DNA from: Planctomycetota bacterium | GTDB lineage: Bacteria > Planctomycetota > Planctomycetia > Pirellulales > Pirellulaceae | Direction of reading: 5' to 3' | NCBI GenBank assembly: GCA_029979005.1 | Contig: JAPOIJ010000015.1 | Location: 1-50,105, forward strand | Length of the DNA: 50,105 nucleotides | Shown here: one piece after another, positions 5,202 to 49,794 of the stretch | Position numbering within the stretch: the stretch's first letter is position 1 | Layout of the letters: each line of letters starts with the position of its first letter | Notes under the pieces: model-generated | What the model was told of the DNA's origin: nothing | Databases searched by the model: none | Seen by the model: the letters and a program-made list of their open reading frames with translations, nothing else | Made by a program: the position numbers and the translations under genes

Positions 5202-8200
5202 ATGCCCGCTTCGGATATTGTTGTCAAAGGCGCTCGTGAACATAATCTTCGCGACGTCAGTCTTGTTCTTCCTCGCAATCAATTGATTTGTTTAACCGGT
5301 GTTAGTGGAAGCGGAAAAAGTTCGTTTGCATTCGACACAGTGTTCGCCGAAGGGCAGCGAAGATACGTCGAAAGCCTTTCTAGTTTTGCCCGGCAATTTC
5401 TCGGTCAAATGCCTAAGCCGGATGTCGATCTGATTTCCGGTTTGAGTCCGTCTATCTCGATTTCACAGAAATCTTCTGGGAACAACCCACGGAGTACGGT
5501 TGGAACCATTACTGAAATCTATGACTTCCTCAGGATTTTGTACGCGCGGGTTGGAGAAGGGTTTTGCCCAAAATGCGATAAGCCAATTTCAGCCCAGACG
5601 CGTGATCAAATCATTGGGAGTATTCTGCAGTTCAAATCCGGTACAGAGTATTTTGTGCTAGCGCCAGTGGTGCGTGGGCAAAAGGGTGAGCACCGCGATC
5701 TTTTTATTGACTTATTAAAAAGAGGGTTTGTTCGAGCTCGAGTCGACGGCGAAGTTGTTTCATTGGGCTCGGAGATTAATCTTGATCGATCAAAGCGACA
5801 CCATATCGAAGTTGTGATTGACCGATTGACCGCAAAGGCAGGGATTCGCTCGCGTCTTGCGGAATCGGTTGAGTCGGCACTGAAAATCGGCAAGGGAACG
5901 CTGATTATTGCTCAGGATAAGGAATTTGGTGATGCTCCAGTGAACCCAGACCTCCAAGACGGTCAGGAAACAGGTGGTGGGAATTCGCGAAAATCACGCG
6001 CTAAAAAGACTCAGTCGGTAGAAGGAGATAGAGTTTATTCGGCTGATTACGCCTGTGCTGCCTGCGGGGTTAGTTTCGCACCTCCGACTCCGCAGATGTT
6101 CAGTTTCAACAGTCCTCAGGGAATGTGCCCGAGTTGTGACGGCCTTGGTGAGGTGTTTACCTTTGAACGCGATTTATTGGTGTCCAATCCCCAAAAGTCG
6201 TTTCAGCAGGGGTGTTTCGATCTTCTCGGGAAGTGGAAAGAGTTGGGGCGTTGGAAGTGCCACATTTATCAGGGGGTAGCCGATACGGTCGAGCGAGAGC
6301 AGGGGCTGGAGACAGGGCATCTTCTAGAAACTGCCTGGGAAGATCTAACCGAAGAGCAACAGGATATTTGGTTGTACGGCACGGGGGATTTGAACATCAC
6401 TTACACCTGGCGAGGTGGAAGTTCGCCGATGAAGTACGGCGGCAAGTTTGCAGGTATCGTCGCCGAACTTGATGAGAAGTACCGAAACACTAACGGTGCG
6501 GCAAAGATTCGAAAACTTGAAGAGTACATGGCGGAGGTCCACTGTATCGAATGCGAAGGTGACCGACTCAACGAGCAGGCACGCCATTTTCGATTGGAGA
6601 CTCAGAATTCCAGATTCTCGAAACAACCGAGTTTGTCGTTACCTCAGGTTTGTGATTTGTCGATTGCCGATGCTCATGACTTTTTCTCAGGATTAGTATT
6701 GGATGAAACACGGCAGTTTGTCGCAACCGAGCCGCTGAAAGAAATCCGTAATCGACTTGGGTTTCTACTTAATGTCGGTTTGGAATATTTGATGTTGAAT
6801 CGAACGGCTCCGACGCTTTCCGGTGGAGAGAGTCAGCGGATTCGATTGGCTGGGCAAATCGGTGCCGGACTCGTGGGTGTGCTTTATATTCTTGATGAGC
6901 CGTCGATCGGACTTCATCCGCGGGACAATGACCGTCTGGTCAACACCCTTCAGCATTTGAGAGATCTTGGGAATACCGTAGTTGTCGTTGAGCACGATGA
7001 AGACACGATGCGTGCTGCGGACTATCTGATTGACTTTGGCCCCGGTCCCGGCGTGCGGGGAGGCGAGGTTGTAGTCGAGGGCCATCCTTCAGAGATTCTG
7101 AAAAATAAGGAAAGCCTGACTGCACGTTATTTGTCAGGTGATCTGGAAATCAAAATTCCAGAAGCTCGTCGAGCGTTTGATTCTGAACGGGTCTTTCGTG
7201 TCAAAGGTGCTCGTCATAATAACCTTAAGAATGTTGATGTAGAAATTCCGTTAGGAAAATTTGTCTGTGTTACCGGGGTGAGTGGTAGTGGTAAGAGTTC
7301 ACTGGTCAACGACATTGTGAAGGAAGAGTTGAGAGAGCTACTTAACGGCGGAATCAGTGAAGCGGGGGAGTTTGACGAACTTGAGGGCGTCGAGCTGATG
7401 GATAAGATGATTGCGATTGACCAGTCCCCCATCGGGAGAACGCCGCGTTCTAACCCTGGGACGTACATTAAATTGTTTGATGAAATCCGCAAGCTTTACA
7501 CGCAATTGCCTGAATCAAAAACCCGAGGTTATGCTCCTGGCAGGTTTAGCTTTAATGTAAAAGGGGGGCGCTGCGAGGCTTGTGAAGGGAATGGTTCAAA
7601 TAAGCTCGAAATGGATTTTCTGGCAGACGTCTGGGTGACGTGCCCGGTTTGCATGGGGCAGCGATTCAATCGGGAAACTTTGCAGGTTAAGTTCCGCGAG
7701 AAATCGATTGCAGACGTCTTGAATATGGATATTCAAGAAGCGATGGGCTTCTTTAAAAATATTCCGAAGGTGCTCACGAAGTTAGAGACTCTGCATGCTG
7801 TGGGGCTCGATTATTTGAAGATTGGCCAACCATCACCAACCCTTTCCGGTGGGGAGGCGCAACGAATCAAGCTTGCGAGAGAGTTGGTGAAGCGCAGCAC
7901 TGGCAAAACGCTTTATCTTTTGGACGAGCCGACGACGGGATTGCATTTTGCTGACATTTCCTTGCTGTTGAAAGTGTTGCAGAACTTTGTTGACGCAGGA
8001 AATACCGTGTTAGTGGTTGAGCATAACCTTGATGTGATCAAGACTGCCGATTGGATTATTGATATTGGACCTGAGGGTGGCTCTGGCGGTGGACGCGTGG
8101 TTTGTGCTGGGACTCCAGAAGACGTGGCGGCGTGTCCGGAATCTTATACCGGCAAGGCGTTGAAGAAAGCGCTGGCTCCCCGTCCCGTGATTGCGAAACC

Positions 8201-46769: not shown

Positions 46770-48170
46770 ATGGAAAAGATTTCAGTCAAGGATGCTAGAG
46801 ATGAGTCGTCGATTGGGAGTACATGTCAACTGCAAGGTTGGGTAAGAACTCGCCGCGACTCAAAGGCTGGATTTAGTTTTATCGAAATTAACGATGGCTC
46901 TTCTCAGGGAAACATTCAAATTATTGCAGAAGCCGCCTTGGAGAATTACGAATCAGAAGTGCGGCAGCTGACCGCTGGTTGCAGTATTTCCGTCGAGGGC
47001 GAAATAAAAGAATCCGGCGGTCGCGGTCAAAAGACAGAAATGCTAGCCCAGAAAATCTGTGTATACGGTTGGGCGGATCCAGAGACTTATCCACTGCAGA
47101 AAAAACGGCATTCGATGGAGAAGCTAAGGGAGTGGGCTCACCTGCGACCCCGGACTAATACATTCGGTGCCGTGGCGCGGGTAAGAAACTGTATCTGTAA
47201 TTCGATTCATCAGTTCTATCAGGAGCAAGGGTTCTTATACATCAACACGCCTGTTATCACGGCAAGTGATTGCGAAGGAGCAGGGGAGATGTTTCAAGTA
47301 ACCACAATGAAACTTGATGAAATCGCAAAACAGAAAATTGAAAATCTTAATTACCGTTTTGATTTCTTTGATAAACCTTCTTATCTGACCGTCAGCGGGC
47401 AGTTGGAAGCGGAAACTTACGCGTGTGCATTAGGCAAGGTCTATACTTTCGGGCCAACTTTTCGTGCAGAGAATTCAAATACTTCACGGCATCTTGCCGA
47501 ATTTTGGATGATCGAACCTGAAGTGGCCTTTGCTGATCTGAACGACAACATGGATCTAGCTGAGAAGTTCTTGAAGAGGATTTTCGCTGATGCACTTAGT
47601 AAGTGTTCCGAAGATTTAGAGTTCTTCAATGAACGAATTGATGAAACGAAATCGCTGATCGAGAGACTGTCGACAATTGTCGAATCAGAGTTTGTTCGAT
47701 TGCCGTATACCGAAGCGGTTGAAATCCTATTAAAGGCCGATGTTAAATTTGATTATGCCGTTGAATGGGGAATTGATCTGCAGTCTGAACACGAACGATA
47801 TTTGACGGAAAAGCATTTTGAAAAACCGGTGATCCTGTTTGATTATCCCAAGACGATCAAGCCTTTTTATATGTATTGCAATGATGATGACAAAACGGTC
47901 CGCGCTATGGATGTGCTGGTTCCCGGAGTCGGCGAGATCATTGGTGGAAGCCAGAGAGAGCATCGTTTGGATATTTTAGAATCGAGAATGAAAGATCAAG
48001 ATCTCGATATCAATGATTACTGGTGGTACACCGATTTGCGAAAATACGGAACCGTTCCTCATGCTGGCTTCGGGCTTGGGTTGGAGCGAGCAGTCCAGTT
48101 CGTGACCAGTATGTCCAACATTCGAGACGTAATCCCGTTCCCTCGAACTCCCGGAAACGCTGAATTCTAA
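46770..48170 (+). CDS. asnS: Asparaginyl-tRNA synthetase
   Basis: Class II synthetase charging tRNA-Asn. It has an N-terminal OB-fold anticodon-binding domain (about residues 15-100, L-Q-G-W-V-R-T-R-R) and the class II core: G-A-G-E-M-F-Q-V-T, motif 2 G-P-T-F-R-A-E-N-S-x-T-S-R-H-L-A-E-F and motif 3 G-F-G-L-G-L-E-R. The E-N-S-N-T-S-R-H form is specific for AsnRS rather than AspRS. Length 466 matches the family. It starts 131 bp after the Nramp-like gene. Confidence 0.97.
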
Positions 48171-48422: not shown

Positions 48423-49523
48423 ATGAAGCTTTTGAATCGTTCTCTTTTACTGCTTACTGCAGTCGCCCTTCTTGTTTTTTCCAACACTGCATTCGGTCAA
48501 CGTGGATTAGACAGAGCTTTGGAGGCTCAAAGAGCTCACAATCCAAATTTTTTTCAAGTAGAAGGCGTGGTCGCGACTGGTGTTTCCGTTGATAGAGCCG
48601 GTAACGCGGTGATTAAGGTCTATACCGAGAACGCTGGCACGAAGGTCCCCGCATTCGCCAACGGCGTAGCGGTCAAGAAATTTGTCTCGGGCCCGATAAC
48701 GGCTTGGGATAGACCAGTGGATCAAATGAAAAAGCCTGGTCGAGGTAACGGCGGTGGTGGTGGAGACACTGGTGGAACCAACCCCCAGACTCGTTTGACG
48801 CGACCAGTTGCGATTGGAGCTTCGATTGGAACTTATCGGCCAAGTGCTGCTAACGCCTGTTTCGCAGGAACCTTAGGTTGTCGACTCAAAGGCAGTAACG
48901 GGCAGCGATATATTTTAAGTAACAACCATGTAATTGCTGAGGAAAATGCTGGATCAGTTGGAAACGATTTGATTATCCAACCCGGCACGTTGGATAACGG
49001 TTGTGTTTTGGAATTGGACGATGTAATCGGTGCATTATCTGGTTTTGTACCAATTAAATTTAATGGGCAGCCAAACTTCATTGACGCTGCGGTAGCAACA
49101 ACCACAGTCGCAGATACTGGTTTCGCATCTCCCACAGAGGCTTATGGTGCACCATCCTCTAATACTCAATCTGCTTTCGTCGGCATGCCGGTCCAGAAGT
49201 TTGGTCGTACAACGAGCTTAACACTTGGTGAAGTGGATGCGATCAATGTCACAGTTAATGTCGGCTACACAGCTGGTACGGCTCTGTTTGATAATCAAAT
49301 CATCATCATCGGGAAGCGGCAACGCGGACGGAAAGTTGTAGATGCTACATTCAGCGAAGGTGGTGATTCGGGATCTTTGATCGTTACTCAAGGTGGTAAC
49401 AATCCGGTTGGATTGCTGTTTGCCGGTAATTCATCAGTGACGATCGCCAATCCGATCGATGAGGTTTTGACGACCCTGTCTGTTTTGAATGGCACCGTGC
49501 TGACAGTTGATGACGGGAATTAA
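48423..49523 (+). CDS. Secreted trypsin-fold serine protease (S1-like)
   Basis: A 366-residue exported protein with signal peptide (about 1-25, cut near A-F-G-Q). Residues about 40-97 form a small alpha/beta domain (V46-E-G-V-V-A-T-G-V-S start), followed by a Gly-rich linker (about 106-120) and a chymotrypsin-fold protease with His169 (S-N-N-H-V-I-A), Asp221 (F-I-D-A-A-V-A) and Ser316 (G-G-D-S-G-S-L-I). The pattern resembles the NAL1-type or bacterial trypsin-like group rather than HtrA (no PDZ domain). Its stop codon overlaps the start of the next gene by one base (TAATG). A G-quadruplex motif and an inverted repeat lie just upstream; Shine-Dalgarno GGAG is 7 nt before the ATG. Confidence 0.88.
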   Translation: MKLLNRSLLLLTAVALLVFSNTAFGQRGLDRALEAQRAHNPNFFQVEGVVATGVSVDRAGNAVIKVYTENAGTKVPAFANGVAVKKFVSGPITAWDRPVDQMKKPGRGNGGGGGDTGGTNPQTRLTRPVAIGASIGTYRPSAANACFAGTLGCRLKGSNGQRYILSNNHVIAEENAGSVGNDLIIQPGTLDNGCVLELDDVIGALSGFVPIKFNGQPNFIDAAVATTTVADTGFASPTEAYGAPSSNTQSAFVGMPVQKFGRTTSLTLGEVDAINVTVNVGYTAGTALFDNQIIIIGKRQRGRKVVDATFSEGGDSGSLIVTQGGNNPVGLLFAGNSSVTIANPIDEVLTTLSVLNGTVLTVDDGN

Positions 49524-49744
49524 TGTCGGCTAAAGAAAAAATAGAACCGTCTGATTTGAGAGAATTCAAACGGAAACTCATGTCTGTACGTGGGGTTCAA
49601 GCGGTTGGTGAATCCGTGTCCGAGGGTTCGTTTTGCTTAAAAGTCTTTTTTGACAATGAGCAGTCGATAAAAGATGCTGTGTTGCCCGGATTAGATTCGG
49701 TACCCATTGTTTGCATGGTATCTGGTTCTATTGAAGCCCAATAA
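49523..49744 (+). CDS. Small protein homologous to the protease N-terminal domain
   Basis: A 73-residue protein without a signal peptide, translationally coupled to the protease gene (TAATG overlap). Residues 22-72 align by eye with protease residues 46-94: V22/V46, G24/G48, V25/V49, A27/A51, G29/G53, S31/S55, V32/V56, G35/G60, K40/K65, V41/V66, N45/N70, P55/P76 and the final V-S-G-x-I-x-A (66-72 with 88-94). It therefore seems to be a free-standing copy of the protease's small alpha/beta domain. It could act as inhibitor or chaperone of the protease or regulator of its synthesis, but nothing in the sequence decides this. A strong terminator follows. Confidence 0.75.
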   Translation: MSAKEKIEPSDLREFKRKLMSVRGVQAVGESVSEGSFCLKVFFDNEQSIKDAVLPGLDSVPIVCMVSGSIEAQ

Positions 49745-49764
49745 ATCACCAGATTATCTGGATG

Positions 49765-49794
49765 AAGCCACGTCGATTTCGACGTGGCTTTTTT
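49765..49794 (+). terminator. Intrinsic terminator after the protease operon
   Basis: An 11-bp perfect stem AAGCCACGTCG/CGACGTGGCTT with loop ATTT, followed by a run of T (49789-49794). It lies 21 bp after the stop of the small gene and is the clearest intrinsic terminator in the window, closing the protease plus small-protein operon. Confidence 0.9.

Follow-up and report, generated by a model that had tools for sequence, protein, structure and literature searches.

The window (the whole stretch of 50,105 nucleotides that was analysed, from a planctomycete whose nearest named match, over five loci, is a Mariniblastus assembly, the name used below for its genus) carries two adjoining forward-strand genes, one encoding a predicted trypsin-like protease and the other a protein of 73 residues. 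Upstream of the protease gene lies an ORF (46770–48170) that resembles, and that we take to be, an asparaginyl-tRNA synthetase gene (asnS). The features of the pair are as follows.

48423..49523, + strand: trypsin-like serine protease of the NAL1 type, 366 aa, probably exported (ORF; Nal1_C PF25819; profile A7 against rice NAL1)
48423..48497, + strand: putative signal peptide, protease residues 1–25 (hydrophobic segment; heuristic scan of orthologues; presumed cleavage site)
48537..48704, + strand: in-protease NAL1_N-like domain, approximately residues 39–94 (HMMs built from other genera; hhalign)
48705..48800, + strand: linker from this domain to the catalytic part, partly Gly-rich (sequence; boundaries from profile matches)
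48801..49484, + strand: catalytic domain (E = 1.2e-80 with profile A7, which has 16 rows, the window protease among them)
48927..48929, + strand: candidate catalytic His169 (SNNHV), invariant in 16/16 rows
49083..49085, + strand: candidate catalytic Asp221 (FIDAA), invariant in 16/16 rows; presumed role
49368..49370, + strand: candidate catalytic Ser316 (GGDSGS), invariant in 16/16 rows
49521..49525, + strand: TAATG, one-base stop/start overlap of the protease gene and the small gene (sequence)
49523..49744, + strand: free-domain protein of 73 aa without a visible signal peptide (ORF; profile homology; purifying selection; model)
49634..49636, + strand: Cys38 of the small protein, a strand-2 cysteine characteristic of free domains (Cys count, free against in-protease)
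49764..49791, + strand: intrinsic terminator-like hairpin after the pair (12 pairs, 7 of them G-C, T-rich tail)

The original prediction described two ORFs (48423–49523 and 49523–49744) overlapping by one base, a strong terminator behind them and a signal peptide in the protease only. The two ORFs, their overlap and a terminator-like hairpin were found at the places given above, and an N-terminal hydrophobic segment is present in the protease and lacking in the small protein. The overlap suggests translational coupling. It is shared by all four near orthologues (L030–L033; G and L numbers denote the genomes and loci of the compared set), while the junction elsewhere includes an 8-base gap in L034 and a TGATG overlap in G090.

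The window protease matches the Pfam family Nal1_C (PF25819) with 25.3 bits (E = 1e-5; cut-off 26.1). In the genome search with the same model the score was 26.6 bits for the protease together with its frame neighbours, and none of the 14 control genomes matched. Profile A7 also matches chains of rice NAL1 (NARROW LEAF 1) in solved structures, 7y77 and 8has among them, with a best E of 2.6e-12 over 84 positions. The residues follow the trypsin-like order His, Asp, Ser in the motifs SNNHV, DAA and GDSGS, and we assume the catalytic roles of His169 and Ser316 from the trypsin fold.

The small protein was modelled with a pLDDT of 80 as a helix–strand–strand–helix–strand arrangement (helices 9–20 and 46–51; strands 25–33, 36–43 and 62–66). 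The predicted structures of the two related segments, whose comparison had been proposed originally, can be compared in part: the N-terminal part of the protease model contains helices and then three strands at places that match the small-protein model, but the model of the protease is of low quality and little use (mean pLDDT 33; 38–77 by block over the accessory domain, from a 6-row alignment). A Foldseek search returned no significant match, the best being zinc-transporter C-terminal domains (E = 0.084). A pro region of the alpha-lytic type had no Pfam match and was absent from the best 50 of the 805 non-significant Foldseek matches, and profile A3 found nothing among solved chains at E < 0.1.

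The relationship between the two proteins is beyond the reach of pairwise comparison, with BLASTP of the small protein against the protease reporting nothing at E ≤ 100, and is evident from profiles. Alignment of seven small proteins with five in-protease domains by hhalign gave a probability of 94% (E = 1.1e-7, 35% identity over 52 columns). In a stricter test, HMMs were made exclusively from rows of other genera (30 in-protease and 28 free domains), although these members had been gathered by profiles whose seeds came from the window's genus, which makes the test strict as to the rows and not as to how the rows were found. The in-protease HMM gave E = 3.6e-9 for the window protease and a per-domain E of 1.2e-4 for the small protein; the free-domain HMM matched the small protein with E = 4.1e-10 and the domain in the window protease with E = 1.1e-5. 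Only these two of the 378 ORFs of the window fell below E = 0.1; the next-best ORF reached 0.36 with the in-protease HMM and 0.82 with the free HMM per domain (whole-sequence values 0.26 and 0.46). In a set of 2106 ORFs, a model made solely of in-protease domains picked out 32 of the 35 free domains at E < 0.01 and no further ORF. The domain HMMs had been extended iteratively, starting from seeds with members of the window's genus, and members added by the later searches were out of sample at that point. Chance similarity of the two domains is thus ruled out by the other-genera profiles. The likeness first reported for protease residues 46–94 is therefore real by profile comparison, and its span is wider, about residues 39–94 of the protease against about 16–72 of the small protein.

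Assignment to a named family is indirect. Neither window protein matches NAL1_N (PF25608) at E ≤ 10. Among 23 genomes that carry the pair or relatives of it, four (G204, G344, G334 and G323) have an in-protease domain that scores above the cut-off of this model, and the free domains of G204 (E = 6.5e-5) and G344 (E = 6.6e-4) remain under it. Weaker PF25608 matches mean little, because five of 14 control genomes also match at E ≤ 10, one of them over the cut-off. As judged by sequence, the window domains join the Pfam NAL1_N family only transitively. Pfam assigned NAL1_N to one of 30 free-protein members (E = 1.1e-5) and otherwise gave weak, scattered matches, as did NCBIfam (scattered; best E = 0.0024). 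The I9 propeptide fold had no match in Pfam scans of the window proteins or of the free-protein members.

In a domain tree with 35 members of each form (61 alignment columns, many forks unresolved), free and in-protease domains are strongly sorted. The labels change between free and in-protease eight times, compared with a mean of 23.9 on shuffling and with none of 500 shuffles as low, a contrast that is raised by near copies in the tree. The in-protease domains of Mariniblastus, that of the window included, lie in a starred set of ten in-protease domains. The free domain of the window is nearest to other free domains and, beyond its own genus, is in no starred group; the two window domains do not group together. 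Recent duplication of the protease's own domain is rejected by this sorting, so that of the proposed free copy of the protease's own N-terminal domain the homology stands and the copying does not. A cysteine in strand 2 is found in 27 of 35 free domains and in three of 38 in-protease domains, counting near copies, seven of the 35 being near kin from the window's genus. Because of the tree sorting and the cysteine contrast, the free protein has the look of an ancient paralogue, with a separate lineage, and not of a fresh copy. An AU test neither supports nor rejects a single origin of all free forms (p = 0.139); those of G204 and G344, whose genes lie upstream of the protease, are placed with in-protease domains in the tree as drawn and may have arisen separately.

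Purifying selection acts on the small gene (dN/dS 0.11–0.25 in ten pairwise comparisons of five orthologues). It is constrained, but less so than the protease, for which dN/dS was 0.005–0.047 in nine of the ten comparisons, the tenth value (0.25) resting on a dS of 0.02. Between the window and L031–L033, dN is 0.108–0.197 for the small protein and 0.025–0.040 for the protease, and amino-acid change is about four to five times faster in the small protein. Such a rate is what might be expected if the free protein were a functionless remnant of a duplicated domain, linked to the protease by chance. That explanation is hardly credible: the dN/dS values speak against it, as do the recurrence of the pair across phyla and the sorting of free domains apart from in-protease ones, and recurrence together with purifying selection already contradicts it. 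Distances between free domains correlate with those between catalytic domains (r = 0.689 over 27 pairs; r = 0.615 over 21 pairs after thinning of near copies; 0/5000 permutations in each case). At the level of sequence this correlation reads as joint inheritance and not as contact, since shared ancestry alone suffices for it.

The gene pair recurs in many genera and in three phyla. Among 99 genomes (the window's own and its relatives), the protease is matched in 18 at E ≤ 0.001 and the small protein in nine at E ≤ 0.1; two of the latter matches, in G054 and G018, are to unrelated frames and probably arose by chance. The small gene lies directly downstream of the protease in all seven genomes of the genus with a full-length match (G000, G007, G016, G019, G022, G026 and G027). 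Broader domain models add a free domain beside the protease in G047, G078, G054, G085, G055, G090 and G036, in the last of which it adjoins a protease fragment only. The pair is thus present in 14 of the 18 genomes with protease matches, the window included. The four without it are G018, G001, G076 and G097, and in G097 the short protease match (E = 1.7e-4) contains a stop and is probably due to chance. Within the genus the pair is found in seven of 28 genomes, several of these genomes being incomplete, and is therefore accessory there.

Two of the pairless genomes hold damaged loci. In G018 the interval between the presumed asnS and the gene that follows the pair elsewhere holds only a protease remnant (L018 1128–1948), in which a signal-like start is fused to part of the middle of the catalytic domain; blastn found no accessory domain, protease end or small gene in L018. 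In G076 the protease gene is in two pieces (L084 4078–6881) around another ORF (5283–6383), which from its look we take to be transposase-like.

Across the phylum, the protease profile gives 42 matches in 38 of 392 genomes. At 30 protease loci (the 12 matches left out of inspection being mostly the weakest), a free domain lies within 1.5 kb at 15, the window included, and no partner was detected within that distance at the other 15. The domain profile, which is blind to location, matches 30 of the 392 genomes. Seventeen of its matches are in short frames without a protease, and 12 of these adjoin a protease (the window again included); the other five have no protease in the fetched stretch, which for one of them ends with the contig. 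These five are at L074 4556–4963, L075 4352–4687 (near a contig end), L080 3939–4364, L076 4364–4618 and L077 4266–4478, and the proteins of L074, L075 and L080 resemble lipoproteins by eye. In most pairs the small gene follows the protease gene. It precedes it in G204, G344 and G036, while the two genes are divergent in G182 (with a presumed protease start) and in Rhizobium lusitanum, and convergent in G085. The surroundings of the pair differ in G026 and G027, where the fetched flanks have no match to asnS or to the downstream gene.

Outside the phylum, 11 plasmid records match the protease, and two of the five that were examined hold the pair. On a plasmid of Rubrobacter radiotolerans a 78-aa gene follows the protease and contains the free domain (E = 6.5e-10); on a plasmid of R. 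lusitanum a divergent small gene lies beside it (E = 3.9e-7). A similar small gene stands 8 bases after the protease on a Rhizobium leguminosarum plasmid, with an E of only 1.5, and the Clostridiaceae and Natronococcus plasmid records have no free domain below E = 0.5. The protease type is also present on an archaeal plasmid. A search for the same pair in other planctomycetes had been proposed, and the pair is there, at half of the phylum loci examined, as well as in Rubrobacter and R. lusitanum. Some homologous proteases do have an adjoining small gene, and the original prediction therefore came through this one of its two refutation tests, the other being the structural comparison. Mobile origin was sought by searching plasmid and phage collections with a single free domain, from G344, in tblastn, with nothing at E ≤ 0.01, and by a scan of viral contigs with profile A1, with no match; these negatives are weak, because pairs on two plasmids turned up later through the protease. 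A role in anti-phage defence was rejected, as four proteins gave no PADLOC match at E ≤ 0.01.

Export was scored across 27 pairs, whose domain E-values are fitted to members of the HMMs themselves, with a hydrophobicity heuristic (12-mer mean threshold of 2.0, set after the values were known). By this measure nine of the proteases appear exported, 16 do not and two are unsure (L005 and L071). No export segment was seen in 24 of the partners, and three are lipoprotein-like, all of them among the nine with an exported protease and none among the 16 with an unexported one, which are small numbers. A partner without a signal beside an exported protease is found in the window, in the other Mariniblastus pairs and in G284 and G330. 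A cytoplasmic partner of an exported protease, as originally proposed, is therefore not supported as a general rule, given the 16 of 27 proteases that look unexported and the three lipoprotein-like partners. The same figures bear on two alternatives. The free domain might be a chaperone for folding or export of the protease precursor; action on a precursor would fit the stop/start overlap and the missing signal peptide in Mariniblastus, but the unexported proteases and the lipoprotein-like partners, as scored by the heuristic, make this role unlikely. It is very unlikely that the free protein is instead a substrate of the protease or a signal released by it, and not a regulator: its gene is adjoining and coupled, and cysteine is rare in the in-protease domains, which would suit such a role, but its kinship with a domain of the protease suggests docking, and an export segment is missing from 24 of the 27 partners.

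The in-protease domain is located behind the catalytic domain in G482, G360 and, weakly, G101. Proteases of this layout are at L083 2839–4176, L098 1369–3081 and L101 1366–2487, the domain being weak in L101. L083 also has a carboxypeptidase-regulatory-like domain between the catalytic and NAL1_N-like domains. This position in some relatives would count against the in-protease domain being a cleaved inhibitory propeptide. A domain found at either end of the protease is what would be expected of a binding module and not of a prodomain, and the free domain could accordingly be a stoichiometric subunit or adaptor that pairs with the in-protease domain and builds an oligomer or brings substrates. 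The best fold matches, although not significant, are transporter C-terminal domains, and those of zinc transporters are dimerising. We consider this subunit role doubtful, as the window protease is exported and its partner is not, so that a lasting complex would be split. Two of the 27 pairs have no detected accessory domain in the protease (L021 and L079) and three have only a weak one (L022, L023 and L025); the free protein therefore need not mimic an in-protease domain.

We tentatively favour a different reading, in which the pair consists of a protease and a dedicated trans-acting partner, the free domain docking on the catalytic domain and keeping the protease inactive. The domain homology, the recurrence of the pair, the stop/start overlap, purifying selection and joint inheritance are established from sequence, and docking and inhibition are inferred. 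Also in favour of this reading are the differing surroundings of the pair in G026 and G027, the restriction of lipoprotein-like partners to exported proteases and the precedents of Spi, the staphostatins and SUB1-ProM. The original prediction had suggested an inhibitor or chaperone, or a decoy. The small protein is most likely a trans-acting regulator and is probably a docking inhibitor. The free domain would bind the surface of the catalytic domain that the in-protease domain uses and, once bound, would hold the protease inactive in the manner of propeptide-like inhibitors, with which it shares kinship to the accessory N-terminal domain of its partner and an adjacent gene. In Mariniblastus it could shield the cytoplasm from protease molecules folding ahead of export, lipoprotein partners could shield the envelope, and where both proteins are cytoplasmic the free domain might set protease activity in the cell. 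Against inhibition stand the position of the domain in some relatives, the domainless proteases, the unpaired loci and domains, the signal-less partner, the accessory nature of the pair and the lack of a significant Foldseek match.

The original prediction knew of no described system of this shape, and there it was mistaken. The C10 cysteine protease SpeB of Streptococcus is described as having an adjacent, co-transcribed gene for the small propeptide-related inhibitor Spi (PMC2873492), and SUB1-ProM is presented as a stand-alone subtilisin propeptide-like inhibitor with a locus adjacent to subtilisin-like genes (PMC6993865). A protease accompanied by free kin of its own accessory domain is thus already known in other protease classes. 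Like Spi, the window small protein is related to the accessory domain of the adjacent protease; unlike that system, the protease is of another class, Spi is described as an inhibitor whereas the role of the window protein is deduced from sequence, and the window domain is accessory and not known as a cleaved propeptide. The window protein is likewise a stand-alone relative of a protease accessory domain as in SUB1-ProM and the I9 inhibitors, but those combine a subtilisin-type protease with the I9 propeptide fold, which Pfam does not find here. Staphopain and staphostatin likewise form an operon of a secreted protease and a small inhibitor, to which protection of the producing cell is ascribed (PMC8443034). 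They differ in that staphostatin is described as lipocalin-like and not as kin to its protease (PMC2873492), while the window small protein is kin to its own. The signal-less Mariniblastus partner beside an exported protease resembles such producer-protecting operons (Spi/speB and the staphostatins).

Titles and abstract openings retrieved in the literature search, which covered few subscription papers, contain no bacterial NAL1-type protease with a free NAL1_N-like partner, no account of the control of bacterial NAL1-type proteases and no free NAL1_N partner of plant NAL1. This is not proof of absence, because the search was only partly directed at NAL1 and left subscription papers mostly uncovered. 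We know of no report of free accessory-domain kin for NAL1-type proteases. In crop plants NAL1 is treated as a yield gene, as seen in titles and abstract openings; rice chains are matched by the bacterial protease profile, whereas the window domains are not matched by PF25608. A possible, if somewhat unlikely, extension of the favoured reading is a previously undescribed two-part switch, in which in-protease and long-diverged free NAL1_N-like forms, the latter mostly with the conserved cysteine, would compete for one docking site, the free partner setting activity in trans; plant NAL1 may retain only the in-protease half. A conserved free partner would offer a direct, testable handle on the control of bacterial NAL1-type proteases and would add one more independent protease family with stand-alone kin of its own accessory domain.

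Two further observations concern the plasmid-borne relatives. The R. lusitanum pair (L119 82–2640) adjoins genes annotated as a radical SAM protein and a putative peptide modification protein with an HEXXH motif. On Tsukamurella, Streptomyces and Rhizobium plasmids, NAL1-like catalytic regions (five matches) lie under an annotated DNA/RNA non-specific endonuclease, which suggests fusions of the two.
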